Assembly: GCA_907163375.1 (NCBI GenBank)
Contig: CAJQUW010005757.1
Location: forward strand, 1 to 64,000
DNA from: Prostheceraeus crozeri
Lineage: Eukaryota > Platyhelminthes > Polycladida > Euryleptidae
Length of the DNA: 64,000 nucleotides
Direction of reading: 5' to 3'
Shown in pieces: positions 17,501-58,773 of the stretch. Positions within the stretch are counted from its first letter, which is position 1; each line of letters opens with the position of its first letter. A program made the translations under genes and the position numbers. The notes under the pieces are model-generated. The model was given only the letters and a program-made list of their open reading frames with translations. It ran no database searches and was not told where the DNA came from.

Positions 17501-20500
17501 CCACTAGCAAGTTATCAAACCCTTAACCAAGTGAACTATCACGCCAAAAATTGAAGACAGATTCGTGCGTCACCTGTTGCATAAATTCGTCAGACAATAT
17601 GTATAGACTATTTCTGAAGACATCAGTTTAGGCTAAGATTGGCATCGGAATTCCATGCGTCAACAACTTCACGGTTGCTATGAATCGGAGAAAACATTTA
17701 CCCACTGAAGATAAAAAGTGATATAGCCTGCATCATAAAACTTGATAGTGGTATAAACCGTGATGCAAACATCCCTTGACGTTTAAAAACGTCAAAATCA
17801 CATCGATATAAGAATGCGTTACCTAATTATCTACACGATTCTCCACAAGGGCAGCTGTTTAAGTTTGGTATCTTTCGTTTCCTGGATCCTTCGAGTTTTA
17901 CCGTCGTGTTTCAATTTAATTAGAGGTTCCACGCTTCCGCGACAAAATGTGATGATTTCGAATTTAAGTACAAAAATGATCATATGTGAAGTTCTAATCT
18001 AGCATTTTTTTCCTAGTCTGCTGGAGTCGCTTCATGGTACAAAAATACAGGAGTGACAAAGCATGCTCACCTGTTTAGCTGCGATTGTTGCTTCGGCATT
18101 TGGATTCTTGATCTTATGACCTTCATCCAAAACGACATAATGCCAGCGTTTCTTTATCAACTGTTCACGATACATGACTAGAGTACTGAATGTTGTTATT
18201 AACACACCTGGATGAGCGGCAATGGTAGAAATGAGACGTTCCTGAAAAATGAATAGTATGGATGTTTGAATGAATAACTGTGTGTTTACATGTAGTCGTA
18301 CAAGCTTATCACGAGAAGGCGACAGCTCGTAAAGAAAAATAATTCGAAATGCATTATGATGTGCATGTGGCATCGCATGTAGTTAATTCTGGATGCAACG
18401 GATTTCTGGTACTGCAAAGTTTGATTCGCGATCCAAGTAAGCGACCTTATGCATAATTTTTTAAGTATTACACAATGCTTAAATGCAGAGCATTAGAAAA
18501 CGACATTACTTACTGGTCTGTTGTAACCTGTTCCACTGGCATGTAATATGGCTACTCGAAGAGGAGGCCACCAACGATGAAATTCGGATAACCATTGTTC
18601 CAATACTGTCGCTGGACAAACAAGTAAAACTGCTCCAAGTCCCTTAATTCCGAAATGTTCATCTACTACATTGCTGTTTTGCAATCCAGCGAGATATGCA
18701 ATCATTTGGATAGTTTTGCCAAGACCCATTTCATCTCCCAAAATACCACCCGCTCCATGACATCGAAGTTGCCATAACCAACGAACTCCGATTCGCTGAT
18801 ATGGGTAGAGACGACGCCAGACTATCTGTGGGACTGAGAATCCACCTTCCAACTCTTCACACTCTTCGTCTGCGTTGTCTTCCTCGTCTGATGAGAGATA
18901 ACCAGGATGCTCTTTCCGAATTCGTTCTCGAAGCAATAATTCACGTCTGAAGCGCCTAAAACACATAAAGTACATTAGAAGGACAAAACCAGGTAAAGTC
19001 GAAGCCACATGATTCGGCTCCGCGTATATTGGAAATTTCATTCAACCTCCCATTTTTGTGCGAATCTCCCATTGAACGTGCATTAAAACCTCCACTGAAA
19101 TTGTCACCGCATAATTCGGTGCATGTTCAACAACAGTGAGACACGCTCGTTTCGCATGCTCGTAATTCACCAGATTCAGAATAACATAGCTTCGGATTGG
19201 TTCGCATTTAGACGCAACACTTATGAAATACACGTATGGGTTGCTGAAAAGTAAAGCCTCCTTGCCTTTAAATGCTGGTTGAAGCCTCCTAATTAAGCCA
19301 TTTATTAGGACTTTTCATTATTAAGATTTATAATTTCCTAACAATGAGCGCAAGATCAGAAGTAGAGTAGAACTGTGAAAAGACTTTAATCAAAGAGCAA
19401 TTTCTAATTTTCGACGTAATCAGCTACGGTCATCACACACTTCCTCCATAGATTCACTGGTTTATGACATCCTAATCCAGTATATTCATGCTCTAGAAGT
19501 GTATTTGAACGTTGTATGGTAAGCATTTAGCAATTTACTACGTTAAATCACCTGACATGTTTACTTCAGCAGTTCGCGAAATTTGACACATTTAAGAAAG
19601 TCGAATTACTAGGATTATAATGTGCACCGATTCTGTGATGACAAACGAATGGCTGACCCTGAAAGCGATGAAACAGTTTGTTTCCATCCTATTTACAAAA
19701 GCAACGCACAATTTTGTGCATGTATATCAGCGATATCTCTTTCCTCGTCGATTTCTGAATATATTCAATAATAATTGCGAGATCATTGAAGGATGAGGCA
19801 GCCGTGTCAGTTTGAATTTGCATCACACAGGCTCAATAACTAACTTTTTAATCACTTGGCTGCCAAAATACTGTACAATATAGACCGCCCATTTACAGTG
19901 CATGTATATGTGAATAGAAAAATCGAATACATACTGCAAGTTGTCATGGAGCGCTTCAACAACCAAGTTAGCTATGTCGCTGGTACCACTAGCATATCAG
20001 CAGTAACAGATTCAGTCTTAAACAACTTTCAAATTCCCAGCACTCACAAGGTGATCAATGCAATGTGATGACTGAATGTACATTTGAGAAATCGCCTCAA
20101 GGCTGCTTTTATAAAAAACAAATCTGCATTTCTGAATACTCTCAATCTACACATAAATTTCATCGTTAACAAAACTGTGTCGGACGTAAGATTAAAAAGT
20201 CATTAATTCTAATTGCATGATAGCATGCATAATTTTTGTTTGGAGTGTATGAGAAACAATTCCATCATATTTGTTTCCCTTCGGTGTTTACAAACTATGA
20301 TGAGAAGTTCTGCTTTATCATAAAACTTTTAAAATTGATGTCGTCGAGCCCAGCATCATTTTGACGTTCCCACATTCAGCGAATATACAGGCCTATGTGA
20401 CTTTACTCAAAAATATTTCGATGCAAGTTTTTCTCGATATGTATGAAAAAGTAGGCCTGTATGTACGACATGACGAATTGCTCATAAATTATGTGGCGTA

Positions 20501-40108: not shown

Positions 40109-41085
40109 TGTAACGGGCCGAGCTAGTAGATGTAAATTAGTTGGGTAGGTATAATGCGCGTACTGTAAGTGTTACGTTATAAACCTACCGATTGCTGCCA
40201 ATGGTGTCCTTTGAATCCTCAGCAGTCTCCAATCCTTTAGCTCTTGTCGTAGAAGCAGCAGTTCACTATTGAGATTATTTATTATAATTCTGAGAACAAC
40301 ACCCAAACCAGAAGGCCCATAGGTATTATTCACGGCACTAATTTTAGCCAACCCAAGGGGATATAGGTAGGACAATGTCAAATTACCAGACCAACCGTAT
40401 CAAAGGCTATAAGCTAGTTATTATCAACACGTGAATGACTTTAAGTCTAACCCAACTCCGAAGAGCTATAGGTCTACTATTATTATTATCTGTGACAGCG
40501 TAAACCCAACTCGGAGAGCTTTAGGTTTCTTATTATTAATACTATGTACGTGAAATAGCAAACCAACTCGGAGAGCTATAGGTTTGTTGTTATTATATTT
40601 AACTTATGTAGCAGAGCAAACCCAACTCGTGAAGTTATAAGTTTACTCAGCCACTACACTTACTATACAATTTATTTAATAAACAAATGTGTTACTATTC
40701 TCTATACATAAACATATAACACAATCACACCGGACAAGTCACATAACACTTTGCCGTATACTTTGTTACTGATTGTTTCGTTCTAGTCGTGAACAGAGTT
40801 CACCAAATTTATTAAATCGACTTATAAAGCATATTTAAGCGACAGCGTCGTTCATTTTGTTATCGGTAATCATTTGGATATTGCATGCCTTCTATTATTC
40901 GGCACCCATATATATCATGATTATATATAATTCGTTGTTTCCCAGTACCATCAATAAGCATAATAAGCATAAATAATACATTTAAATGTACACATTTTCA
41001 TGCCATTTAAAAACGAAACTAACATTTATAGTTTCATTGAAGTGTCACGTAATCAATGATATCATAGTAAAACAATGCTACTACA
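40109..41085 (-). repeat. Gypsy 3' LTR (977 bp)
   Basis: Starts TGTAACGGGC and ends CTACTACA, giving TG...CA termini in this orientation. It differs from the 5' LTR at about eight or nine positions plus one 3-bp indel. It contains five degenerate repeats built on CAACTCGGAGAGCTATAGG, each flanked by AAACC/GGTTT-like ends, at about 40349, 40448, 40502, 40560 and 40616. Confidence 0.96.
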
Positions 41086-41094
41086 CTTCCCCCC
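41086..41094 (-). promoter_or_regulatory. Polypurine tract
   Basis: The minus strand reads GGGGGGAAG directly against the 3' LTR, the plus-strand primer site of the element. It starts only about 30 bp after the end of the TatD frame. Confidence 0.85.
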
Positions 41095-41125
41095 TACTGA
41101 AAAAAAATCGTCCCGATTATATATA

Positions 41126-43514
41126 TCATAGGCGGAAGATACGCTTGAAGTTGTCGTGAACAATATTACGCAAGTTTTCTTCCCCGTCAGGTCGCGGCAT
41201 TTAGCTACACGGGAGATAACATAATCCGTTCGGGTCGGATATCTGGCGAGATGAGGCGCATCCGTCTCTACCAGTAGGCGTTCGATCGGGATGGCTCGTA
41301 TTGCCTGAATCCTGGGATCGTTCCTCCGACTCAGATCGTTGCGGACGAGGATGGGCGCAACGCTAAAAAACATGTTGCGGAAAAGATCGGCAAAAGAACG
41401 TATTATCTCTCGAGGGCCCGACTGGAATCTTTACATGTTTTGCTGGATTAATCCGGCGCGCTCGATAAGCGATATTTTCTAAAAATAGAACATATCCCGG
41501 CGCGCTGGCGCGCAGGGATCTTAGAATTTCTATAAATAGCGCATTTGCCGGCGCGGCGCGCTTTGGCCTTTGATGAAGTAGATTTTAGGATACTATTCGT
41601 TCGTGCAAATACAACGCAAAAAATATTGCGAATGAAAGGATGAAAACGCAGTCGTTCAACTTAAATTACTGTGTTCGTTTACGGCGCGCATTATACTCAT
41701 CATGCGGATTTTTATCGAGTAGAATCTATAAATAGAATTTGGTGCCGGCGCGCTTGATGTAAAGATTCCAGTCAGGCCCGAGGGACGTAAGTACAATGCA
41801 AAACCAGTCGATTGGCCGGATTTATGTGGTTGAGCAAAATCTCTGCCAGGGTTTCATGGGCCTCTGTATCTCCCCACTCCTTCTCTCTACAGTGTAGGAT
41901 CAATGGGAGGGAAAGTTCAGCGGCCAACAAAGCCTGGTCACAGAATGCTCGACACTGGCAGTCCCAATCAATGGTCCATTTCATGTCGAGTCCAGTCTCA
42001 CCGATGGCCTCTATGTTGTTGTGGCGTACATGGCGGCGAAGTTGTGCTTCAACCGAAGGAGACCAAATATCCGCATGACGGGGGTGCAGACCCATAGCTA
42101 ATATTATCTTGACATGGGGAAAATCTCCTTGGAGGTCGCTGTGTCCCCAGCTGTCGACGTTGTCCCGAATGTCCACTACTGCGCTCATCTCTGCGATATC
42201 AGTCTCCATCTCATCGATATGGCCAGCATGGCCCGCGCGAACGCAAGCGTCGTAGAGGTGGATGTGGGCATCACCTCGCCAAACGGATGGAGGGGTTGGA
42301 ACTGGAGGTTCATCATCTCCGTCTGCACCCTCTGGTGCGGGGCGTTGGATTTCGCCCTCGGGACCCTCACGTAGGTCTTCAGCGGGCGCCGAAGATGCAC
42401 CCTGTGTGGCTATAGGCGGACTGGCGGCCGCAGATGGAATCGGCTCCAGTAAGCCAGATGGCCCAACCACAAAGGTTGCGTCGGCGCTGACGTCTGCGAA
42501 ATTATCAAGGCTGGATGTCGAGTCATGAGGATTGTCGGTCATGGAGGCTGTAGGAGCCGAAGGGTTCCCAACTACCACTGCCCGACTATCGCCAATTACC
42601 TCGAAATCGATGACTCCTCGAGTGTCCTCGGACGTAACGAGCAGAACGTCTGCCTCTTGTACATTTTGGCGAGTCTCTTTCAGCGTCTGCTGTTGATTAC
42701 GCATTTTACGTTGATGACGCTGCTGTTTATCGCTGATGTTCTCGCGATTCAGGTTAATGTGCGACTCATGCAGTCGAATAAGTTGGCGAGACGGAACTCT
42801 CCACAGGTCTGCCAAATGAATAATACGGCCATGCACGAAGGTTTGGGCATCTCTGGAAGTGGCCAGAAGCGTAGCTTCAATGACGGCCCGGCTTAAACAT
42901 CGGTCTTTGGTCTTCCTATTCCAACCTGGAGGACAGCCCCGAACCAATCCCTCACCCAATAAATATTTCTGCAGTTCTAATTTAACTGACTTCGCTTCTG
43001 CTTGTGGTATACAGGATCCACCAGTTGCCATTTTCTGGAAGGAAAGACAGTGAATATCGGCCTGATGTTCTACGATAACAGGTTCTATTTCTATATCGGA
43101 CATGTCAGAGTCGGATACGTCTGACGTCGCTATGGTACTGTGAATTTCAATCATTGGGGCAGTGGACTCTGTTGTGTCACTGTCACAATCTTCTGCAATC
43201 ATAGGTAAGGTGAAGTCGGTTGTATCAGTCCCCGCTAGATCATCTACGCTGATGTTGGATTCATCCCGCTCGTCTTCGATGCAGTCTTCAGCATCGTTCC
43301 TGACGCAAGGGAATTTTTTTAGCTGATCAGCGTGTGAGACAAACGACTTTCTCCCGCGCTTGGTGTCGCGAATGAGATATTTGTTGTCAGAAAATCTCTG
43401 CTCTATGACCCAAGGTCCGTCCCATGGGCGATAAAATTTACGTTGTTCCCCTTTAGGAGCAATGGTGTGGTAGTACATCACGAGATTCCCTACTTGATAG
43501 GTGACATCTCTCAC
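41126..43514 (-). pseudogene. Gypsy pol part 4: integrase C-terminus, linker and TatD-family nuclease
   Basis: Residues count from 43514. 1-67: the integrase C-terminal GPY/F module (VGNLVMYYH, RPWDGPWVIEQRFSDNKYLI). 70-160: acidic linker. 160-290: a compact, uncharacterised segment with CPPGWNRKTKDRCLSRAVIE. 290-412: proline/alanine-rich. 414-580: the TatD hydrolase start with metal-ligand motifs DAHIH (415-419), GLHP, AIGETGLD (503-510), LPLILHCRE (536-544) and LVLHC (570-574). The MITE at 41415-41778 splits the domain. Beyond it, in another frame, follow ERLLVETDAPHL (about 41270) and, after one more shift, a TatD-like C-terminus with TGA at 41128-41126. TatD proteins are Mg-dependent 3'-5' DNases with a TIM-barrel fold. 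The ligand set is complete, so the domain was presumably active in the parent element. Confidence 0.88.
41415..41778. mobile_element. 364-bp MITE inserted in the TatD domain
   Basis: The terminal inverted repeats are 21 bp with one mismatch (GGCCYGACTGGAATCTTTAC plus A). They are flanked by CGAG at 41411-41414 and 41779-41782, a 4-bp target duplication. The interior is non-coding, with several CCGGCGCGC/GGCGCGC blocks in otherwise AT-rich sequence. The superfamily was not recognised. Confidence 0.88.
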
Positions 43515-44210
43515 CCCCGCGCGTCATATCCTCGTTTCTGACGAGTCTGCTGAGTGCGAGATATGGTTTTAACGATATCCCAGGTCTTCATCAGTTTTTC
43601 CTGGATTTCATAGATATGTTCCAACGTTTCTCGTTCTCGCACAGTTTCCAAATCCAGCTCAAAATCAACCGGAAGTCGCATTTCGCGACCGTATGTGACG
43701 GCGGCTGGAGAGAAACCTGTTGTACTGTGGGTGCTGGAGCGATATGCCCAGAGGCAGCATGATATTGTTTGATCCCAGTTATCACGATCGCACTTCTCAT
43801 GAGCGATGACTATCTGTTTCAAGGTGCGATTGAAGCGCTCGACGCCGCCATTACCCTGCGGCCGATAAGATGTCGTACGCGATTTCATGATGCCAAACAA
43901 ATTACAGAGCTCCCTGAACACCTTGGATTCGAACTCAGCACCTTTGTCAGAGTGAATCCTATCTGGGACCCCATGGCGACAGATCCATTCCCTTAATACG
44001 GCCCTGGCCACAGTAGATGTCTCTTTATTGGGTAGTGGAGTGGCCTCAGCCCACTTGGAAAAGAGATCAACCATTGTGAGAATATAGCGGTTGCCTCGCT
44101 TGGTTTTACGCAAAGGTCCCACCAGATCGACCTCGATGCATTCCATCGGCTTGCCGGTGATAATGGAAGTCATCGGAGTTCGTAGTTTTGGTATAGGACC
44201 TTTGAACGTG
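43511..44210 (-). pseudogene. Gypsy pol part 3: integrase catalytic core
   Basis: Pol resumes after the LINE with FKGPIPKLRTPMTS. The DDE core residues are in IEVDLVGPL, HSDKGAEF and GNGGVERFNRT (D, D, E). The core is followed by TYGREMRLPVDFELD and a helical segment. The frame ends at 43511 after a run of five G, where the next domain continues in another frame. Confidence 0.93.
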
Positions 44211-44332
44211 TGTGTGTGTGAGAGAGAGAGAGAATGTGTATATTGAATTAAATCACAAATGGAAATCAGAAGTTACAAGTCAATTACATTTCTTCAGCAT
44301 AAAATTAGCCAGCATCAATTAAAGGAACTACG

Positions 44333-46960
44333 TCAGTCATAATAGGTAGATGATTTTAAAATGCATACTCTTGGGAAGAAAGAGTTGCGACGCACAGATG
44401 TTCGACAGAAAGGCACAGAGATTCTTCCACTAGGTAAGTACCTTGGGAATGCGAGCTTTATTGAAGTTTGTGCAGACTCAACTTGTTCGAATAGTTTCAA
44501 GGCAGCAGCAGTTCTTCTTGGAGTCAGATCATTCATACTTGAACAACCCTTTATTTTGAGGCAGCGGTTTTGAATAACTTGCAGCCTAGTAGAGTCCCCT
44601 TTGGACAAACCGATAAATGCTGGAGAGGCGTATTCTATAAGGGAGCGTATCAACACGTTGTAAATTTGGATGAACTCCTGAGGCATCGTGTACGGTTTCA
44701 TGCGTCGCAGGATGTACATTCGCTGAGCACATTTCTTCTCTGTAAGGTCAACATGAGAACCCCATCCCAAGGAATCATTCAAAATGACACCCAAAACTTT
44801 GACACTCTTTTGGAAGTTAACGTCAGCGATGTGTGTCTCAACATTAAGGACATCTTTAAAATTTCCTCGGTAATAAATCAAGCCAGTGGTTTTGGCAGTG
44901 TTCAGACTGAGGTTTGAATCAGCAGCCCACTGTGAAATGTTGTTGATTTCAGAGTTAAGTAGCCGTATGTCATCGGAAGCATAGTCTTTTCTAACTCACA
45001 CAACGATGCAAGTGTCGTCGACATACTTAACCAGACTGGTTTCCGAATTAATTGGCTTCAAAGATGAGACATATAGTCCGAACAGATAGGGACCGAGCAA
45101 TGAGCCCTGAGGTACGCCACTTGTTACCAACTTCAAATCGCTTTTCGCATTATTGAGCCTTATTTGCTGCTGTCGACCATACAGATAACTCCTCATCAAT
45201 AGCATGAATCCCTTTGGGAATCCAAACTGATACAGTACATTCAACAGATCATGATGGCAAATACGATCGAATGCACTCGTGAAGTCGAAACTTAAGAGAA
45301 TTGCCGCACCGATGTTAGAATCATCAGCCAACTTGGTGAGATAGTCATGAACTGTTATGATAGCATGAGTTGTCGACGAAGACTTCCGAATTCCATACTG
45401 GTGCTCACCTAGACACTTGATAAGGCGAGGACGCAAATATTCGATCAAAAGTCGTTCTGCTATTTTGGCTGGGATAGGAAGTAAACTGATAGGGCGAGTA
45501 TTCGAAACCGACAAATTTCTGGACGACTTCAGAACGGGAGCAACATCAGTGATCTTCCAAAGTTCAGGAAATTTTCTCTGCTTGAAACATTGCAGGATAA
45601 GCGCGTGAATGGGTTCAGAAAGGATGAGTGCCCTTTTCTTATAGATGATCGAAGGAATGTCACCACTACCTGAGGCCTTCAAGGGTAGGCAAGACAAAAG
45701 TTTCCATACATCTTCAACACCGAAAAAAGGTAACCAACCATCATCAAGAAGCTCATCGAGATTCGAGGGAGTTGATTGTGGACTCATTATTTTGCATAAG
45801 TGTTCATTCAGGTGATCAAGATTTTCAGAGAGTGGGAAAGAATCATCCATAAGAGCACTGACGCTATTTACGCAGCCTCTGCGTTCCATCTGAATATAAG
45901 ACCACAAACCCTTAACGGAGGTGGATTTCTTTGAGAAATATCGATGTTTGGCCTTGAAAATCTCTTTCCTCACTTTGACTTTTAGCGCATTGTACACAAC
46001 CCAATTTTGATTTCGAAATGCTTCCCAACGATTGTCTATGAACAGCTTTACGAAGGGCGTCATCCATGGTGCATCGGCATCAGTGAGAAATACTTTATAT
46101 TGCGGAATTACACTCATCGCCTTCTTCATAAATTCATAAAAGAGCTGAGTTTTTACGTCAACGTCGCATGCAAAGTAAAATGCTTGCAAATCGCAATGAA
46201 GGAATTCTTGTTCGAAGGCCAAAACGTTCGATAATCTGAGGTCATAGAATGTCGACGTACAAACAGCACGTCTTCTGTTGAATCCGTAAGGACGAGCTAA
46301 AACGCAGTTATGGTCTGAATTTCCGATGGGAGGACCAATTTCGATATTACTTTTGGGATAACTGTCGAAGACGGATGGCTCAACGTATATCTTGTCGAGC
46401 TCAGCATCCAATCGAGTGGGCCCTGTGACAATTTTCAGAAGTGAAAACTTGGAGGTCAAAAAAGATTGATCACAACGATTAAAGTCCCCAGCAGCGATAA
46501 GACGATGGTAAGGGTAGCTGGCGAGAATGCCATCAAGAATCGTACAAAAAGTGTCGCAGAAACCGCTGAAAGCAAATGCCGTCATTCCCGGAGGTAAGTA
46601 CAGGCCAACAAGTATCAGTTGCAACACCGGCATGCGTATATAGCAGAGATCAATTGCTTCAAATATAGGAGAATGGAGTTTTATTGCTTTAAATGAAGTT
46701 TTACACCAAACTGCAACACCGCCGCGACCAGAGTCGCCGGTCCTGTCGGTACGGAGGAGACTGTAACCGTGAATAGTAAAAGCATCTGAAGGAGTGACCG
46801 AAGTTAACCATGGCTCCGTGCAAACTGCGATATCGGGATTTGAGGCAAACATTTGACACTTGAAGTCGTCAAATTTATTGTTCAGTGAGCGCAAGTTAGT
46901 GAGGAAGATGACTGGAAGCTTTACTCTCTCGTGATTAGAGGTAAAATCGCGAACTAAAAA
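44333..46960 (-). pseudogene. LINE ORF2: APE endonuclease and reverse transcriptase, one in-frame stop
   Basis: The endonuclease has LTNLRSLNNKFDDF, CTEPWL, GDFNRCD and GNSDHN. The RT has [13 protein letters not shown] [64 protein letters not shown] and the catalytic KYVDDTCIV. A single TGA right after this motif (about 44998-44996) interrupts the frame, which continues in the same frame with KVLGVILNDSLGW and LIRSLIEYASPAF to a stop at 44333. A CGA-to-TGA change fits CpG deamination. No ATG is seen at the start: the open frame overlaps the end of ORF1, suggesting reinitiation or frameshifting. Confidence 0.9.
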
Positions 46961-47966
46961 TTCTCACCAACTCGTCAACCACCATTCCGTTGATGTAAAG
47001 CTTCCTCATTTTAACATACGCAGTATCACCAGGATTGTCACGTCGATGCTGGTAAGCACGCTTTCGCAGAGCAGTTAGTTTCTGATTCATTTCCGGAGGT
47101 AAGTCTTCTTGAAGAAATACTCGATTCAATGGATGACAAGCCTCTTTAAGGTGACGAGCCTTCGAAAGGAAAGTTCTCACAGTTTTCTCGTTTGAACGCA
47201 CCATTACCAGTCTAGGTTTACCATCAGGCCGAGGTCTACCAATTCTGTACACATCCTTGAAACGTTCTATCTCATGAGAAAGATTCAAAGTTTCAGCAAT
47301 TGATGAAACTGCCTGATGAGTGTTTGCAACGTTATTGGTTCCTATGCTAAAAGCCTTCTCAGGGAGATTTCTAATTAAAAAGGAGCTCTTACGCTCCTTG
47401 CAGTCCACGGAGAAAAGATGCTTCTGCAGAGAGAGAACAGACTCCTTGATGCTCTGTATTTCTTTTGTATAAGACACTCCCAGAGATTCAACATCTGTCT
47501 TCATCTTCAAAAATTTGTTCTCATTCACTTTAAACTTGTCCAGAATCAGATTGTGGGACTCCTCAACTCTATCTGTAACTTTCTGTATTTTCTTGTCGAA
47601 TTGGCAAGTCAATGAGTTCAGTAATTCTTCTGTCTGTTTCATCACCTTGCTACTTTCAACGCAGAGCTTTTCCTCAATTCTTTTGAAGATTGAGTCTTGC
47701 AAAGTGGAAAGACTTGACTCAAGTTTAAGCGAGAACGATTTCTGCGCCATCTCAGCACTATACTTTAAAAATTCCTCGCACTGCCGGCACACAAAAAACA
47801 TTTTGTTCAAATCTCTATCCGTAACTTTCGAATGTCCGGTACAAACAACATGAAAGCATTTAATGCAACCTGGGCTACTGCATGATAGAAGACGTTTTTC
47901 ACGCTCCTTCGACTTATCACTGATAACACATGGTTCAGCTGAGCATTTGGTGCATTTATTGTCCAT
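46935..47966 (-). CDS. LINE ORF1 protein with PHD-like zinc finger and coiled coil
   Basis: The ATG at 47966 opens a 343-aa frame. Residues about 4-52 hold a PHD/RING-like cysteine pattern (CTKCSAEPC, CSSPGCIKCFHVVC, FFVCRQC). A long coiled coil (about 60-190) and a C-terminal RRM/transposase-22-like domain with SSFLIRNLPEKAF, RFKDVYRIGRPRPDGKPRLV and RKAYQ-type motifs follow. This architecture is known from CR1/L2-type ORF1 proteins, which bind the element RNA. The frame is intact. Confidence 0.85.
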   Translation of the reverse strand: MDNKCTKCSAEPCVISDKSKEREKRLLSCSSPGCIKCFHVVCTGHSKVTDRDLNKMFFVCRQCEEFLKYSAEMAQKSFSLKLESSLSTLQDSIFKRIEEKLCVESSKVMKQTEELLNSLTCQFDKKIQKVTDRVEESHNLILDKFKVNENKFLKMKTDVESLGVSYTKEIQSIKESVLSLQKHLFSVDCKERKSSFLIRNLPEKAFSIGTNNVANTHQAVSSIAETLNLSHEIERFKDVYRIGRPRPDGKPRLVMVRSNEKTVRTFLSKARHLKEACHPLNRVFLQEDLPPEMNQKLTALRKRAYQHRRDNPGDTAYVKMRKLYINGMVVDELVRIFSSRFYL

Positions 47967-48007
47967 TGCGGTGCTTTCTGTCCAAAAATATATCTTCAAA
48001 AAAGTCT

Positions 48008-48078
48008 TCCCAATCAGGACTCGAACTTGCAGTTAGATCGGCACTACAATGACTGATCAGCCACTAGACCATTCCAAC
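48008..48078 (-). promoter_or_regulatory. tRNA-like A/B-box pair in the LINE 5' UTR
   Basis: On the minus strand TGGTCTAGTGG (A-box-like) and AGTTCGAGTCC (B-box-like) are 33 bp apart, the spacing of an RNA polymerase III internal promoter. The pair ends about 40 bp before the ORF1 start. The acceptor and T stems do not pair cleanly, so it is not a tRNA gene. Confidence 0.55.
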
Positions 48079-48433
48079 ACTCCCAACACAGAAGTGATAG
48101 TTTACACCTGTTCGTAGAGTCAGAAAAATGTCTAGCCCTTCAACGCGAAATCTATGCAGATCACGTGGCTTGGCAAAGCAAGCAGCTGTCTGCTGTATGA
48201 GGTGATGATAACTCACTGATTGCACTGTCACACCAGAATATCCCAAATCGCATATAGTAGCATGATCTACGGTAATCAAAGACCCGAAAAACAGATTCCT
48301 CGTGCCATGACGAATCCAGCAATACAAAATTGGGATATACAACTCCAAGTGTAAACAGAATTGGATCGAAAAACAGAAGAGTGGTCGAGCAGAGAAGAGA
48401 CACAACCGCACAGTAGCGTTGTGTTACATACAG

Positions 48434-49281
48434 AGTGACACATACTCCGGAACCATTTAAATATTTGGTAGTGTCCTCTCTCATACATGGCCACCAGAAA
48501 CGAGCTCTCAGTTTCTGATACGTCTTATCCCGACCTAAATGGGATGACCCGACGCCTGCATGACATTGTCGAATGAACGACATTCTTTCTGTAGCAGGTG
48601 GAATAAATTTCTTGACATCTCCCATTACCCGGAACAGTAGCCCATCTTCTACAATCACAGTCTCCCAGAATTTAACAATACGTTTGATTTCTTCTGAACA
48701 AGTCTGCAATCGTGTGGAAGTGGGTTTGTCCGAATGATGTCTGTGGGTCTTCCAAGACAGGACCTGAGCCAAATCGGGATCCTGAAGCGTTTCTCGTTTC
48801 ATGTCATCGACTATGGCACCAGGAGACCATAAATTGAAGATAACTGCGGAGTCATCTTCTAGGCGATCCGACGACTGTACCGGCGTATCGTTACAATGAA
48901 CAGTACTGGGCAACCTGGAAAGAGCATCAGCATTGCTATGTGCTGACCCGGGACGGTAGACGCACTCAAATTCAAATTCTTCGAGGATTTGGAGCCATCG
49001 GGCTAGCATTCCGTGTGGTTCTTTGAAACTTCGCAACCATTCTAGGGACTTGTGGTCCACTCTGGCAAGGAATTTTTCCCTGTAAGATATGGACGAAAGT
49101 GTTCCATAAAGAAAACAAGGGCAAACAATTCCCTTTTTGTTGGTGCGTAATTGGACTGGGCTGTGTTCAGTGACTTACTGGCATACGCAATTACCTTCTC
49201 AGAACCGCCCAGTTGTATTTGGGAGAGAACAGCTCCGATGGCATATCCAGATGCATCTGTATCGAGGATGAAACACCCAGA
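48434..49281 (-). pseudogene. Gypsy pol part 2: RNase H and integrase zinc finger
   Basis: After the stop, the same frame gives FILDTDASGYAIGAVLSQ, KVIAYASKSLN and RELFALVFF (RNase H). A one-base loss in an A-run near 49070 shifts the frame, after which DHKSLEWLRSF, RWLQILEEFEF and NADALSRLP continue. The integrase HHCC zinc finger follows (CHAGVGSSHLGRDKTYQKLR to FWWPCM). Its first cysteine appears as serine (GSGVC), and the LINE inserts directly after this point. Confidence 0.88.
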
Positions 49282-51168
49282 TTATGCCCGAAAGACTGGC
49301 ATGGTTAGTATCGGTGCTGAAGTGAGATAGTTCTTGAGGGTAGTGAAAGCGGTTTGACAGCTTTCTGTCCAAGTGAAGGAATGATCCTCCCGAATCAAAT
49401 CATGTAGAGGCTTGGCGATCCGCACAAAGTCTCTGACAAATCGTTGGTAATAAGATGCGAATCCTAAGAATTCCTTCACCTGTTTGGCCGTTGTGGGTGT
49501 AGGCCATTTTTTTACTTTGTTCGTCTTCTCTGGATCGGTATGGATGCCATCTGGCGTCACCATATGTCCGAGATATCGAACAGACTGTAAGGCCCATTGA
49601 CATTTCTTAGTGTTAAGTTGTAGATGTGCATCCCTCAACCTTGATAAAACCAATTCTATGTCCTGCAGATGGTCAGTCCAATTTCGACTGAAGATGATTA
49701 TATCATCTAAGTACACCAAACAATTGACACCCACGAGGCCCCGCAATTTATCATCCATCATTCGTTGGAATGTGGCGGGGGCCGAAGCAAGTCCAAATGG
49801 CATCACATTGAACTCGTATAGGCCCAAAGGGCATATGAAAGCAGATTTTTGTTTATCAGAATGTTGGAGCGGAATCTGCCAGTAACCGGATTTGAGGTCT
49901 AGCACCGAGAAGTACGAAGCGCCGTGCATGGCGTCCAAAGCGTCGGATACAGTTGGCAGGGGGTAAGCGTCAAACTGGCATGCTTGGTTCAACTTGCGGT
50001 AATCAACGCAAAAACGAAGGCTACCGTCCCGCTTCTGAACTAATACAATCGGACTAGCCCATGGACTATTGCTGTACGATATAATGCCTTGATCAAGCAT
50101 TTCCTGAATCTGTTTCGTAACTTCTGCTTTCAAGTGTGGTGGGATTCGCCTGCAAGCCTGACGAATAGGTGCGTGGGCACCCGTATTTATACGATGTTCT
50201 ACCCCGGAAGCTCGACCCAATGGCCGGTGGTCAGACATGAAAACATCGTCATATTGGTTTAATAATGTTTGCAATTGTGAACTTTGGAAAGCTGTGAGGG
50301 TTGTGTCTTGCGCATTTATCTGATTTCTATCGGGACCTTTATGCATTACTTGACATATTCTGTTGGAGGATTCCTCCAAGTTTTCGCCCTCATCCTGGAC
50401 AAATGAGATATTGTCGACCTCATAGCTAGCTACAAAAGGTTCAAATTTGCCGATAACTTCATTTTTGATGATGACCGAATCATCATTGTTATTGACAATA
50501 GGAATTATTATATTTTTATTACTCACAGTGATGATAGAGGGCAAAAAGGTCAGCCCCAAACGAACAGTTTCTGAGCTGTCAGCAACAATGCCAGATATAG
50601 GTGCCCCCAAGGTACCTTTAAATCGAAGGCGAGCCCGAACTAACTTCACAGATTTGGGAGGAATTTCTATTTTGTCATTAACCCCTATTTTCATAACGGT
50701 GTTACGACCCGTTAATATTGGCAATATAACCCCAGGTCTTTTCAGCCACACCTGACTACAGTCTAGATCAATGACTGACCGTTCCGGTAATGGGAAGTCC
50801 ATTCCTAAAATCAAATCAATAGACAAATCACTGGAGACTACTAATGATCGAGTAGGACAATATTTACCAAACGCTATTTTGGTATCAGCTATACCGACAA
50901 TTTGTAGTTCTTCGTCTTTAGGGCCTCGAACATCTAGTTGACTGTTTGCGGGCAAGGGCTCATAAGTGGAGACAATCCTATTACTACATACCGAGCAATC
51001 AGCTCCGGTATCTATCAGTGCTATGACTTCTCGTCCCTCTACCATAACAGAAACATTTGCCCTAATGCGGTCCCTTTTAGTAGTAACAGCGACAGAACGG
51101 GACGCATCTACCACTTTTGAGCGTTTCCCGCTGTGCAGAATCGAGCGATGTGTCCTTTGCCTGAACAT
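49282..51168 (-). pseudogene. Gypsy pol part 1: protease and reverse transcriptase
   Basis: The aspartic protease motif is ALIDTGADCS. The reverse transcriptase carries SPWASPIVLVQKRDGSLRFC, VDYRKLNQ, FSVLDLKSGYWQI, FNVMPFGLASAPATFQRMM and the catalytic VYLDDIIIFS, then YLGHMVTPDG and the connection FLGFASYYQRFV. These domains copy the RNA genome and process the polyprotein. The frame opens inside the gag overlap with no ATG, in line with frameshift expression. A TAA at 49284-49282 stops it just before RNase H. Confidence 0.93.
51066..51129 (-). promoter_or_regulatory. Predicted -1 ribosomal frameshift signal (GGGAAAC plus stem-loop)
   Basis: On the minus strand G_GGA_AAC occupies 51129-51123 in the gag frame (gcG GGA AAC), the exact X_XXY_YYZ pattern. 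It lies inside the gag/pol overlap, and pol continues in the -1 frame. About 15 nt downstream, ATGCGTCCC (51108-51100) can pair with GGGACCGCAT (51075-51066) with one bulge, forming a 9-bp stem. The spacer is longer than usual. Confidence 0.75.
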
Positions 51169-52430
51169 TTAAAGCACACTATTTCTTGATTTCGTTCCGG
51201 ATCTAACGAATTCGATGCTGCTGCTGGTGATGTTATAGGGTGTGGTGAAGCAGAAATTGTAGGCACGTCAACATGGGGTTGTGCTGTAGTTGGAAGGTCG
51301 CTCGTCCTGTGTACAGCCGAGGTTGGTGCAGAATAACCTAATTGTCTACCCTGCGGAGGTGTGTAAACATTTTGAGGAATAAGCGGTAATTGTCTTATCT
51401 GGCGATCATGTGATGCAGAGCGCCAAGGTACAGAGACATTGTTTGGCCATATTTGATGTTGTGGTGACGACTGAGCGCCTCGAGAACCATATTGATACAC
51501 TGGTTGTCGAAAATTTCGACGCTCTACTGGAGTCGTTGCCGACGTAATGAATCGGAACGGTGAAGTACAGGAGGCAGCAATGTGGCCAAAATTATTGCAC
51601 TTATAGCAACGTATGGAAGAATTGGAAGCAGAAATAGTAGAAGTCCGTGTCTGCGGAACATTTGATTCTACCCTTTCAAATCGAGTGACGACATCCAAGT
51701 AGTCGTTCAATTAATTTGGTGGAAACCTGGACATTGACAATTTAACATCCCTCCTCGTATCTCGTGGCATTAGCGTATTCAAAACTCGACGCTCCAAGTC
51801 ATCGGTACGCAAATCTGGGAATGCGTGTCTGCAAATGCGCAGAAGTACATCAGCGTAATCGCGGATTGTCTCATCTTTCGTCCGCATACGCGACTCGTAC
51901 GCCGCTTCCGCCTCTACGGTTGTTGCAAACGGGCAATACCTACATCGCGATTCGTGGATCACTTCTGCGTAAGTGTGGGTATCTGCTCGATCCACAACAA
52001 TTTCATTAGGCCTACCTACGGTTTTGATAAATAACAAACGCAATTTACGTGAATCTGAAAAGTTATCGGCGAGCAACTCGAAGAACTTGAGCCAACGATC
52101 AAAGGCTAATTTCCCATCAAATTTTTGCAAAGCATTTAAATCGTCCGGGATTTTATTTGTATTTGATGGCTTATCCTGTAATAGAGAGGTGCATTTGTGT
52201 TCAATGGTATCGATTTTTGTCTGGAGCTTAGCCAGATCGTGGACTATGTCAGAAGTTAAGTTCATGTTTGCAATACCTTTCCCTTCTGCTTCTCGTCTAG
52301 TAAAAAAATCAAGGTCATCAGCGTTCAAAACAGGTTCACCATCCGTTTTGACACGTGATTCCTGCTGACTCCTACCCCGGAATGGTGTTGTAGCTGAAAA
52401 CCCCGTCGAACCAAAGCCATAGTGCGACAT
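51108..52430 (-). pseudogene. Gypsy gag with one in-frame stop
   Basis: Gag forms the virus-like particle and packages the RNA. The frame starts MSHYGFGSTGF 39 bp after the LTR and includes a capsid-like region (KFDGKLAFDRWLKFFELLAD, YAEVIHESRC, ETIRDYADVLLRIC). Two CCHC zinc knuckles follow (CYKCNNFGHIAASC and CFKCSGKGHIARFC), and the frame ends with TAG at 51110-51108. A single TAA at 51713-51711 breaks it between the capsid region and the knuckles, in the same frame on both sides; a CAA-to-TAA change would explain it. The last 60 bp overlap pol in the -1 frame. Confidence 0.9.
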
Positions 52431-52448
52431 AATGGAATACTGATCGGT

Positions 52449-52466
52449 TCTATACCGCTGTCACCA
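52449..52466 (-). promoter_or_regulatory. Primer-binding site
   Basis: Two bases after the 5' LTR the minus strand reads TGGTGACAGCGGTATAGA. TGG is the complement of a tRNA CCA end, as expected of a (-)strand primer site. I cannot assign the tRNA species. Confidence 0.7.
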
Positions 52467-52468
52467 AG

Positions 52469-53448
52469 TGTAACGGGCCGAGCTAGTAGATGTAAATTAG
52501 TTGGGTAGGTATGATGCGCGTACTGTAAGTGTTACGTTATAAACCTACCGATTGCTGCCAATGGTGTCCTTTGAATCCTCAGCAGTCTCCAATCCTTTAG
52601 CTCTTGTCGTAGAAGCAGCAGTTCACTATTGAGATTATTTATTATTATTCTGAGAACAATACCCAAACCAGAAGGCCCATAGGTATTATTCACGGCACTA
52701 ATTTTAGCCAACCCAAGGGGATATAGGTAGGACAATGTCAAATTACCAGACCAATCGTATCAAAGGCTATAAGCTAGTTATTATCAACACGTGAATGACT
52801 TTAAGTCTAACCCAACTCCGAAGAGCTATAGGTCTATTATTATTATTATTATCTGTGACAGCGTAAACCCAACTCGGAGAGCTTTAGGTTTCTTATTATT
52901 AATACTATGTACGTGAAATAGCAAACCAACTCGGAGAGCTATAGGTTTGTTGTTATTATATTTAACTTATGTAGCAGAGCAAACCCAACTCGTGAAGTTA
53001 TAAGTTTACTCAGCCACTACACTTACTATACAATTTATTTAATAAACAAATGTGTTACTATTCTCTATACATAAACATATAACACAATCACACCGGACAA
53101 GTCACATACCACTTTGCCGTATACTTTGTTACTGATTGTTTCGTTCTAGTCGTGAACAGAGTTCACCAAATTTATTAAATCGACTTATAAAGCATATTTA
53201 AGCGACAGCGTCGTTCATTTTGTTATTGGTAATCATTTGGATATTGCATGCCTTCTATTATTCGGCACCTATATATATCATGATTATATATAATTCGTTG
53301 TTTCCCAGTACCATCAATAAGCATAATAAGCATAAATAATACATTTAAATGTACACATTTTCATGCCATTTAAAAACGAAACTAACATTTATAGTTTCAT
53401 TGAAGTGTCACGTAATCAATGATATCATAGTAAAACAATACTACTACA
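52469..53448 (-). repeat. Gypsy 5' LTR (980 bp)
   Basis: The promoter-bearing LTR relative to the minus-strand transcript, about 99% identical to the 3' LTR. Near identity indicates a recent insertion if no gene conversion has occurred. It carries the same internal repeat array. Confidence 0.96.
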
Positions 53449-54100: not shown

Positions 54101-54173
54101 GTGGCTCGTAGCTCACTTCGTTAGAGCACAGGTCTAGTTAACCTTGGTCGTAGGTTCGAATCCTACCAGCCGC
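54101..54173 (+). tRNA. tRNA-Thr(AGT)-like sequence, probable pseudogene or SINE head
   Basis: The D-arm is TAGCTCACTTCGTTAGAGCA. The anticodon loop CTAGTTA presents AGT (Thr). The T-arm GTAGG-TTCGAAT-CCTAC pairs perfectly, and the 3' strand CAGCCGC plus A can pair with GTGGCTG of the 5' end. One extra C in the 5' acceptor strand (GTGGCTCG) and a weak anticodon stem (4 bp) argue against function. No pol III T-run follows within about 15 bases. Confidence 0.6.
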
Positions 54174-55467
54174 ACATCTCTTGCATGGCAATCTGATCTA
54201 TCGTGTATTTAATTTAATCTCATTGTTGTTATCTGCAAATAGGATTTACCTGAAGCATGGTGAGATCAAACGAGGAACTGAGTGAGCAGTAAAAATTACC
54301 TCGTTCGAATTCATGAGACATAAAACATATATTATAAATAATTTTTGCGCTTCCTGATACCAACAATATTATATAGTATTTCGTCAGTTTATGAAGAACA
54401 TCTTTTCACACTCTTCATCAAACATGCACAACGTACTCATAACATACATTACTTATTTCTTCCATGATTTCTGAATCACCATCAATGTCAGTCTACAATT
54501 TCCCGAATGAATTTTCATTTGAAACACTTTTTTAAATTATACATTGTAATTTCATAAATTATGAAAACATGAAAATATGAACAAAATGATTCATGAAATT
54601 ATAGAAGAACAAAAGCCTTAAGGTGCACGCAGAAAACTTTTAAGAAACATAGACGCAAATAGAAATAGGGAAATTAACCAGAATTATACGTGCGGTACGA
54701 GATGAACTTTCGATGGATTCTCGTTATTAGATGAACTTCTTTTGCTATAAATTGCTTTCACCTTCAGTCGTTCTGACGCATGGATTTAATGGCAATTAAA
54801 GATTTTCACCAGATGTCCCCTATTTCAGTCTCAGAAATTTGATTCATCGGCATTATGTGAAGTTTCTAGATCGCTATACTGATCAAAATCCTCCTCAAAC
54901 TTTGGATCTTTACTTATTGATTGAAGCATCTCAGTTCAAGCAATAAAGAGACCAGATAGAAAAGGGCCAAGATCAAATTTGTGGCCTAAAAATTAAAAGC
55001 GTCGAAAGCTGATGCAAGAAGGAAGTCTATATTCAAGAACTGGAGCGAATTTTAATAATTCAATAATTGATCAAAGTCTGGTATTAAACATGTGTTGTAC
55101 ATGTATCATAGTCAAACTCGTCAGCTAATTTTTTCTGCATTTTAGTGACACTGTCAGATACAGTCCGGCAACCAGAATGAGTTTCTGCAGGGGACGAGGA
55201 CGAAAATGAGACTTTTACAGAGTGATGCACACTTTATTCCTACAACGAATCTGCGCGTCAGTCGAATTTTAGTTCCACAAAACCAAATCCCTGAATTCTA
55301 GTTAGTGGCAACTTCTACACCTTCTCCATTTCTATTTCAGATCTTTCGAAATGAATTTCAAACATTTCCAGACGGATTTCAGATTTCTCCAATTAAATTT
55401 TAGATATTCGTCAACAATGTCAGCTTCGAACATGTCTGAAATTCAATTGGAGAAATTTGAAATCCAT

Positions 55468-57496: not shown

Positions 57497-58773
57497 ATGG
57501 ATTTTGAAAGCAACAATGACAGTGACAGTTAAATTTTTTTTGAAGCCGGAATTAACCGCGAACGTATATATAAAGACAGAACGAATTTTGACGTTTTTGT
57601 CGATGAGGAGCACAAGGAAAAATTTAGGCTAAATGAAGAGATGGTACAGTACATTGAAGCACGTGTTAAATAAATAAATAAATGAACCTTGTTTATACTC
57701 GGAAGCACATTAGGCACAGAGCCTTTCTTCCATGTGGCCGAGTTCCATTTATCCCACTCCCATTCTTTTTGTGCTGAGTGCCTAGCAAGAATGCAGAGTG
57801 TGCCTATTTTAAAAGTTTAAGGTTTGACCCGACCAAGGTTTGAACCATGGTCTCCCGGACGCAAAGCGAACACTCTACCACAAGGCCACAGCGCCTTATT
57901 GGAAACGAATTGCGACACGCGACCAAAAGAAGTCATGCTCTGTCTCCCAGACAACAGATCCTTTTATGTCTAAGGTTTCTCAGTGGAAATGCATTTTACC
58001 ATATAACTGGCGATGTCCATAGTGTGCACAAAAGTTCCGTTTGCCGCGCAATCCACTCAGTCGTAGCCACAATCAGTGGAACATTGCAAGCAGAATTCGT
58101 ACATTTTCCGTCAAATGTTGCAAATGTTCAACAGCAATTTTTTGCGATTGGTGGAATGCCGTATGTTTGTGGGTTGATGGATGGGACATTAGTGCAGATA
58201 CAAGCCCCATCTGAGAACGAACATCAGTTTGTGGATAGGCACGGAAATCATTCAATTAACGCATTATTCGTATGTGGATCGAAGTTAGAGTTTTATTTCG
58301 TCAGTGCACGATACCCTGGCAGTGTGCATGATGCCAGAGTGTTGAGGAATAGTTCACTACAACGGCTTTACAATACAGGGTGGAGGCCATCTCCTTCTGC
58401 CATTCTGTTGGGAGATTCAGATTACCCATGCTGTGACTGGCTCATTCCACCCGTAAGACGTCCAGAAACGGAACCAGAAAGACGATTCAATACTGCTCAC
58501 AAGTCAACTAGATCTGTGATAGAACGTGCCTTCGGTCTTCTGAAACAAAGGTTTGCTGTTTTGCAAACGCCTCTGAGAGTAAAATCTCCGGAATTTGCTT
58601 GCGAAATGATAAAAGCATGCGCAGTGTTGCATAACATGTGCATCAAATACATGAGTGCACCATCAGACATTCCAGAAATTAACGAAGATGAAGATTTCCC
58701 AGAAGACAACCTTCCATACGAGGAAACCATGCAGCGGAGGCAGCATCTCATCAACTATTTTTCGATTTCTTAG
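57497..58773 (+). pseudogene. Harbinger (HARBI1-like) transposase, split by a SINE
   Basis: The N-terminal part starts at the ATG at 57497, hits TAA at 57530, then continues open with RERIYKDRTNFDVF and EKFRLNEEMVQYIEARV. A SINE (57669-57893) follows, then the main frame to 58773. Counting from the ATG at 57847, the DDE residues are D112 (GLMDGTLVQI), D190 (LLGDSDYPC) and E226 (SVIERAFGLLKQRF). These match PIF/Harbinger transposases, which cut and paste the element. The ATG at 57847 lies inside the SINE and is not the native start. Confidence 0.9.
57669..57893 (-). repeat. tRNA-derived SINE, copy 2
   Basis: The tRNA-like head is on the right (minus strand TGGCCTTGTGGTAGAGTG as A box, GGTTCAAACC as B box). 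The body matches 32790-32984, and an ATTT-type tail lies at 57669-57684. It interrupts the Harbinger transposase between ARV and LIGNELRH. Confidence 0.85.

Follow-up and report, generated by a model that had tools for sequence, protein, structure and literature searches.

The DNA analysed here, called the window in the following, comprises 64,000 nucleotides of the polyclad flatworm Prostheceraeus crozeri (assembly GCA_907163375.1, contig CAJQUW010005757.1, positions 1-64,000), and coordinates refer to window positions. Its minus strand harbours at 40109-53448 a Ty3/gypsy-type long terminal repeat (LTR) retrotransposon, in which the Pol region ends with a domain of the TatD DNase family (Table 1). 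The two LTRs with their TG...CA ends are identical at 98.8% of positions, and the 4-base repeat GTCA flanks both outer sides as a target-site duplication. A stretch starting with TGG 2 nt past the 5' LTR represents a candidate primer-binding site, and a G-rich tract precedes the 3' LTR. The Pol order protease, reverse transcriptase (RT), RNase H and integrase was found by Pfam in the element, in pieces; the matches of RNase H and of the integrase C-terminal domain stay below the Pfam cut-offs in this broken copy and exceed them in open copies, the latter domain in families A, B, D and E described below. For the gag-like open reading frame (ORF) at 51711-52430 no Pfam match was obtained at E<=0.001. 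Collectively, our data support, with a probability of about 95%, that TatD is a native and selected Pol module in a clade of Ty3/gypsy-type elements.

Table 1. Parts of the TatD-bearing retrotransposon in the window, and contigs of a shorter relative elsewhere in the genome.
Feature	Position	Strand	Evidence
5' LTR, TG...CA ends	52469..53448	-	968/980 identity to 40109-41085; GTCA outside
gag-like ORF, first part	51711..52430	-	239-aa open frame; placed by position
gag nucleocapsid part with zinc knuckle	51108..51710	-	zf-CCHC 1.9e-9
Protease, reverse transcriptase and start of RNase H	49282..51168	-	Asp_protease_2 4.2e-5; RVT_1 4e-36; RT_RNaseH_2 2.8e-4 (under cut-off)
End of RNase H and integrase zinc-binding domain	48400..49060	-	Integrase_H2C2 1.2e-14; RT_RNaseH 0.0031 (under cut-off), within 48164-49060; end at 48400 approximate, set by the start of the inserted LINE-like element
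LINE-like (long interspersed nuclear element) non-LTR element inserted in integrase, limits approximate	44230..48400	-	RVT_1 8.9e-23; Exo_endo_phos 0.0037 (weak, under cut-off)
Integrase core	43511..44173	-	rve 1.1e-18
Integrase C-terminal (GPY/F-type) domain	43314..43418	-	Integrase_p58_C 1.2e-5, 25.8 bits (cut-off 27), residues 33-67 of 580-aa frame
Variable linker between integrase and TatD, central basic patch	42276..43300	-	about 340 aa; low identity to family B
TatD N-terminal half (DxHxH, GLHP, GETGLD, LILHCR, LVLHC)	41775..42275	-	PF01026 2.6e-20, profile 2-155 of 253
Insertion of about 350 bp with inverted terminal sequences, inside TatD	41415..41772	.	inverted repeat
TatD C-terminal half (ETDAPHL), TatD-type stop, one frame change near end	41126..41414	-	PF01026 6.5e-7, profile 171-236; three-frame translation
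Candidate polypurine tract	41086..41098	-	G-rich purine stretch abutting start of 3' LTR
3' LTR	40109..41085	-	pair of 52469-53448
Short family-C form, integrase to 3' LTR	contigs C9510, C6548, C851, C10694, C6576, C8164		

A first, sequence-only reading of the locus had assigned the domain to TatD from its motifs, and DAHIH, GLHP, GETGLD, LILHCR, LVLHC and ETDAPHL indeed follow each other in the TatD order. The assignment is confirmed by the profile TatD_DNase (PF01026, Pfam cut-off 27 bits), which both window halves exceed, with an E-value of 2.6e-20 and 73.3 bits for the frame 41775-43514 and of 6.5e-7 and 29.4 bits for the frame 41065-41373; complete TatD domains of the families A-E reach 88.8-127 bits. 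Among solved TatD structures the best sequence-profile match was 1yix (5.6e-26). The N-terminal half in the window is 96.5% identical over 171 aa to the TatD of a family A copy elsewhere in the genome (L012). The TatD-type stop at 41128-41126 is located 40 nt ahead of the 3' LTR and is followed by the G-rich tract and the LTR from 41085, in agreement with the proposed distance of about 30 bp to the polypurine tract. It had also been stated that TatD shares one frame with the integrase C-terminus; this applies to the N-terminal half, which belongs to a 580-aa frame, but the window copy as such shows no read-through.

The window copy is broken, with the integrase in two frames and split by the LINE-like element, the TatD domain likewise split, and further frame changes, which taken alone could favour chance similarity, mis-assembly or a host gene beside the element. 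Intact copies are, however, present elsewhere in the host genome. The integrase zinc-binding part adjoins the core in L012 and L014, and the LINE-like insertion of about 4 kb is a later event in the window copy. The insertion of about 350 bp within TatD is also a later event; its inverted arms (41403-41436 and 41757-41790, 34 nt) are 82% complementary, and it has no second copy within the 64-kb window. The probability of chance or mis-assembly becomes practically negligible given the E-value of the profile match, the number of TatD matches in the genome, the same join of Pol and TatD in many contigs, and short duplications outside the LTRs, which were found for the window element and, by our reading, also for L012, L014 and L025, though they are not evident in all copies. 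A host gene beside the element was rejected on the same grounds.

The first reading had named TatD confined to this copy as an outcome that would refute it. The search of the host genome (2.05 Gb, 14165 contigs) showed the opposite, since at least 150 of 229 candidates, among them the window copy, gave a scored match above the Pfam cut-off. At least seven of the 150 are second pieces of one copy, leaving about 143 separate places, and 125 of the 150 listed matches contain no stop within the matched stretch. We read 52 places (L009-L060), 20 of them (L041-L060) over about 0.6-1 kb each, where the element context of family members follows from identity or coordinates. By TatD sequence, 50 of the 52 fall into five families, A to E, and the remaining two are a bacterial gene (L009) and a host TATDN1-like exon (L042). 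The first reading had asked whether such matches are flanked by integrase and an LTR. In all 19 loci L010-L028 the integrase linker accompanies TatD in the same orientation, in 17 together with the integrase core and in 14 also with protease and RT. In the window and in 10 of the 19 loci, which cover families A and B, TatD lies between paired LTRs of 93.0-99.9% identity; the LTR pairs of family C are described below. Open frames that begin in RT or RNase H, continue over the integrase and reach TatD were found in every family (L012 for A, L028 for B, L029 for C, L030 for D and L032 for E), those of L012 and L028 showing RT, RNase H and integrase in this order and all above cut-off. The open frames of families A-E thus read RNase H, integrase, linker and TatD, with TatD inside the Pol frame and not as a separate third ORF. 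Among the best-scoring matches that were listed for both domains, 94 of the 150 integrase places are followed within 9 kb by a listed TatD of the same strand, in 84 cases at a distance of 1.0-1.55 kb, and 94 of the 137 compared TatD places have a listed integrase upstream. The claim that TatD belongs to the element and is not a later insertion is supported by its same Pol place in five families, its location inside LTR pairs of families A, B and C, its conserved metal ligands, purifying selection and its single clade in the trees below.

Two side observations concern individual contigs of this census. On contig C10044, seven TatD ends resembling family C follow one another in tandem at 35122-58937, spaced by about 3.8-4.3 kb, and one of them is the read locus L041. 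The bacterial gene L009 is located on the 906-kb contig C8477, which has 29% GC over the 9.8 kb read and shows metG-, cydB- and tatD-like genes by reading of translations; the contig is probably an endosymbiont genome.

The comparison among the families indicates how strongly the domain has been retained. TatD identity is 59-63% among families A, B and D, and families C and E share 26-33% with the other three and with one another. Linkers share 15-35% between families and integrase cores 53-85%; hence, TatD is far better conserved than the linker. The window element likewise shows 24-29% identity to family B over the integrase end and linker, compared with 61-74% over TatD. In nine aligned sequences, 36 of 264 columns are invariant and include D6, H8, H10, E98, H133, H165, E219 and D221; the chance of all eight being invariant is 6e-8, if columns are independent. 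The metal ligands had been reported as complete, which proved correct, because E98, H133, H165, E219 and D221 are unchanged in 9 of 9 sequences, and they are kept between families at about 30% TatD identity. These positions correspond to E91, H127, H152, E201 and D203, the metal ligands of E. coli TatD, to which Group II enzymes such as S. aureus 2GZX and human TATDN3 add an HxH motif (PMC4176340). The retro-TatDs carry this additional motif, with H8 in 31 and H10 in 29 of 31 complete copies. In the same set E98, E219 and D221 are present in 31, D6 and H165 in 30 and H133 in 28 copies, figures that lean towards intact copies because the 31 were picked as complete open domains.

Selection was estimated from within-family copy pairs with a synonymous divergence (dS) above 0.02, of which family B has none; between families dS is saturated. 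The ratio of nonsynonymous to synonymous divergence (dN/dS) of TatD was 0.10 in family C (6 pairs), 0.12-0.15 in E (3 pairs), 0.26-0.27 in D (20 pairs) and 0.31-0.42 in A (41 pairs), and these ratios should be overestimates, because they include neutral changes after insertion. The TatD domain is hence under purifying selection in the four measurable families A, C, D and E. For the integrase, values of 0.01-0.18 were obtained from 1-2 pairs per family.

The conserved ligands also bear on a non-catalytic role, in which TatD and the basic linker would tether the integrase to chromatin or nucleic acid. Chromodomain Ty3/gypsy elements possess an extra module C-terminal to the integrase, a chromatin reader of about 50 aa, and the position of TatD is the same; moreover, the linkers of all five family representatives contain a central basic patch along with acidic stretches. 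The linkers of families C and E also display a TQT motif, which we take to resemble sites bound by dynein light chain (LC8). However, the additional module is here a hydrolase family domain of about 265 aa, and its catalytic ligands are among the few positions that remain invariant at about 30% identity, which binding alone would not need. A mere tether is accordingly quite improbable, and the retro-TatD would most likely be an active two-metal nuclease of Group II, as judged from its ligand set.

It might also be possible that TatD is passive cargo or that host TatD genes were captured repeatedly and recently. Retroelements do capture genes, and TatD-less derivatives of the element still proliferate, as described below. 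In a tree of 15 retro-TatDs and 10 references (TATDN1, TATDN3, E. coli YcfH, E. coli TatD, S. aureus YcfH, two MetG-fused TatDs, the endosymbiont TatD, 3ipw and the host TATDN1 exon), all retro-TatDs were placed on one side of a branch with 99/99 support, which became 100/99 after removal of three references (7 left). The retro-TatDs do not group with TATDN1 or TATDN3 in either tree. The references in the tree are few and lack TATDN2, and the program flagged long branches; the separate position of the retro-TatDs holds for the sampled TATDN1, TATDN3 and bacterial TatDs. In the approximately unbiased (AU) test, in which the groups were named after tree inspection, the union of family C with either of two reference sets and of family E with one set was rejected (p 0.0008-0.0011); grouping family C with E. 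coli TatD and TATDN1 gave p 0.0008, and TATDN3 took part in the test only as member of a YcfH group. In the integrase tree, families A, B and D stand together and C is paired with E, and the TatD-bearing families including TatD-less relatives of family C (Cdelta) form one clade against L062 and L063 (support 100/100, with these two as the only outgroup rows). The absence of TATDN2 from the tree leaves some room for passive cargo or recapture, yet the single clade for five families, the post hoc AU result, the distance of the host exon L042 and the purifying selection on TatD make this explanation very improbable. A recent copy of host TATDN1 was rejected because of the distant position of L042, and a one-off capture in the window copy because TatD occurs in five families as one clade. 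Instead, the trees suggest that TatD was most likely captured once, before families A-E diverged, and was then inherited vertically.

Several observations weigh against our reading of TatD as a native and active module. First, no LTR pair was found in the stretch fetched for 9 of the 19 loci, and among the matches listed 56 of 150 integrase places are not followed by a listed TatD over the same 9 kb, while 43 of 137 compared TatD places are without a listed integrase upstream. Second, at least one of the eight conserved positions is changed in 6 of the 31 complete copies (L024, L025, L034, L036, L055 and L059), and selection on TatD is apparently weaker than on the integrase, with few pairs compared. 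Third, E. coli TatD itself has been described as an enzyme of low in vitro activity (PMC4176340). Finally, L061 and L064 represent family-C relatives without TatD, the Cdelta elements, which are evidence against ESSENTIALITY. In L061 (1-1668) an otherwise open Pol frame stops where TatD is expected, retaining the last dozen or so residues of TatD, and L064 (minus strand) has the same TatD tail in another frame. The junction region of L061 occurs at six places with at least 96% identity, two of which were read, showing that Cdelta has multiplied. A second or related short form of family C (Table 1), known from its spacing, is about 960 bp shorter than the TatD-bearing one between integrase and 3' LTR: three LTR pairs without a listed TatD are spaced 6240-6282 versus 7205-7219, and six integrase copies lie 1197-1225 bp from the 3' LTR versus 2180-2286. 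In total, 41 LTR matches of family C could be joined into 14 pairs on one strand. TatD lies inside 10 of them, one of these spaced 15948, and is absent from 4; the fourth pair without TatD is on contig C1772 with a spacing of 3066. Since TatD-less derivatives have multiplied, TatD is not essential in family C.

The retained tail suggests that TatD was lost from Cdelta and not primarily absent. The LTRs of the short form are 96-97% identical to those of TatD-bearing copies. Along integrase and linker, L061 resembles L029 in some stretches and L036 in others, a mosaic which indicates that TatD-bearing and TatD-less elements recombine by template switching. Such recombination implies co-packaging, so a supply of TatD in trans would be plausible. 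Another gypsy-like family should be mentioned in this regard: L062 (1-2538), with an integrase 48% identical to that of family A, has the Pol-tail motifs GDSN, GVGVNT and DPHF, which we presume to be like those of SGNH (GDSL) hydrolases, at the place where the others carry TatD; the tail gave no SGNH/GDSL Pfam match at E<=1.

What the enzyme might do in the element can be approached from its stand-alone relatives, nucleases that ordinarily serve DNA repair. E. coli TatD degrades single-stranded DNA and RNA as a 3'-5' exonuclease; it shortens the 3' overhangs of duplexes to 2 nt and takes off deaminated bases at 3' ends (PMC4176340). Reported activities also include action of TATDN2 on RNA and R-loops, action of TATDN1 and TATDN3 on apurinic/apyrimidinic (AP) sites, and an AP endonuclease activity of E. 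coli TatD (PMC12709183). Made as the last domain of Gag-Pol, TatD would be packaged beside the integrase, joined to it by a mostly disordered linker of about 270-340 aa with its basic patch. It could then trim, from the 3' end, single-stranded DNA or RNA that remains on the element's complementary DNA (cDNA). Candidate substrates include overhangs from strand transfer, RNA remnants and 3' ends that are damaged or deaminated, and more cDNA would become fit for integration. The enzyme would be helpful and not essential, and TatD-less derivatives might perhaps be complemented in trans. Catalysis, packaging, substrate and trans supply are steps that we infer. That the nuclease is active and serves the replication of the element itself is somewhat favoured, and cleaning 3' ends or RNA remnants of cDNA would be the simplest use; trimming of cDNA 3' ends in particular is a tentative proposal.

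Alternatively, the enzyme, whether carried in the particle or set free from it, could be directed against the host, acting on host R-loops, AP sites or competing or sensed DNA and RNA as a counter-defence instead of on the element's cDNA. The AP endonuclease activity reported for E. coli TatD (PMC12709183) fits such a role, as does the absence of TatD in some lineages, which would agree with a conditional benefit. The place at the C-terminus of Pol after the integrase in five families would nevertheless favour a role in the particle, and a host-directed function appears unlikely. The widest version of our preferred reading, that a once-acquired Pol TatD acts as a nuclease for cDNA end-processing and repair, may be supplied in trans to recombining TatD-less relatives, and is the source of some invertebrate TATDN2-like genes, is rather doubtful when all its parts are taken together.

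Elements that captured enzymes have been described before. The nearest precedent are LTR retrotransposons of bdelloid rotifers, Juno and Vesta, which captured a DEDDy exonuclease or a GDSL esterase (PMC5408684). As here, retrovirus-like LTR elements took up a nuclease that could in principle act on 3' ends, and the module, with a putative function, is common to several families. In Juno and Vesta the enzyme is a separate ORF3 and an RNase D-like DEDDy exonuclease, whereas here a metal-dependent TatD hydrolase is fused in one frame behind the integrase; moreover, PMC5408684 reports no significant departure from neutrality within genomes, in contrast to the purifying selection and the TatD-less derivatives found here. 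Insect R1 LINEs possess a viral superfamily 1 (SF1) helicase at the C-terminus (PMC4686597), thus also a foreign enzyme at the end of a polyprotein, set off by a spacer that exceeds 300 aa, but they are non-LTR elements and the enzyme is a helicase instead of a nuclease. Planarian Burro and other giant gypsy-like elements encode a polyprotein with extra domains, and those named in the accessible part of the source do not include TatD (PMC6431247). The known TatD DNases (E. coli TatD and YcfH, S. aureus YcfH, human TATDN1-3) share the TatD_DNase profile and the metal ligands with the retro-TatDs, including for S. aureus 2GZX and human TATDN3 the Group II HxH (PMC4176340), but they are stand-alone proteins, and the retro-TatDs form their own clade against those sampled, which did not comprise TATDN2.

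In the open-access literature, judged by titles and openings of abstracts and without coverage of Repbase, no TatD-bearing retroelement was found. Protein-database searches gave nothing scored among the 8000 best candidates for the 580-aa frame and nothing among 828 candidates for its TatD part. The TatD of L019 retrieved from 1634 candidates four proteins at E<=1, all with TatD_DNase and methionyl-tRNA-synthetase-type domains, and no retroelement or animal homologue came from the database. Those four proteins of 705-753 aa are apparent MetG-TatD fusions. In IMG/VR no relative of the 580-aa frame or of the integrase core was found, and six TatD loci have 27-30% identity.

The window also contains features beyond the retrotransposon. 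Exons with SNF2-rel_dom and Helicase_C domains at 10385-19041 (-) probably belong to a host ERCC6-like gene, and a match to the minor spliceosomal U6atac RNA lies at 12222-12325 (-; 45.9 bits, cut-off 33). A tRNA-Thr (agt) was predicted at 54101-54175 (+), and a DDE_Tnp_4 transposase at 57847-58773 (+; 1.5e-37) is presumably Harbinger-like.

LTR retrotransposons are thought to finish their replication with RT, RNase H and integrase, and with host nucleases where needed. In the Ty3/gypsy-type clade described here, Pol possesses a real, native and conserved nuclease module, for which we infer the mechanism. That these elements have kept their own TatD with intact ligands to about 30% identity suggests that a step in cDNA maturation, cDNA repair or the interaction with the host is so limiting that such an enzyme is selected for, and the TatD-less derivatives in the same genome offer a natural comparison set. 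Furthermore, the finding is a warning to annotators, because 'TATDN2-like' gene models of invertebrates could be tails of retroelements. A lead in this direction is the giant squid, for which a TATDN2-annotated gene is listed among the non-Hox genes of the Hox region, together with ZMYM1 and POGK (PMC6962438); elements of the kind described here might have seeded such annotations.

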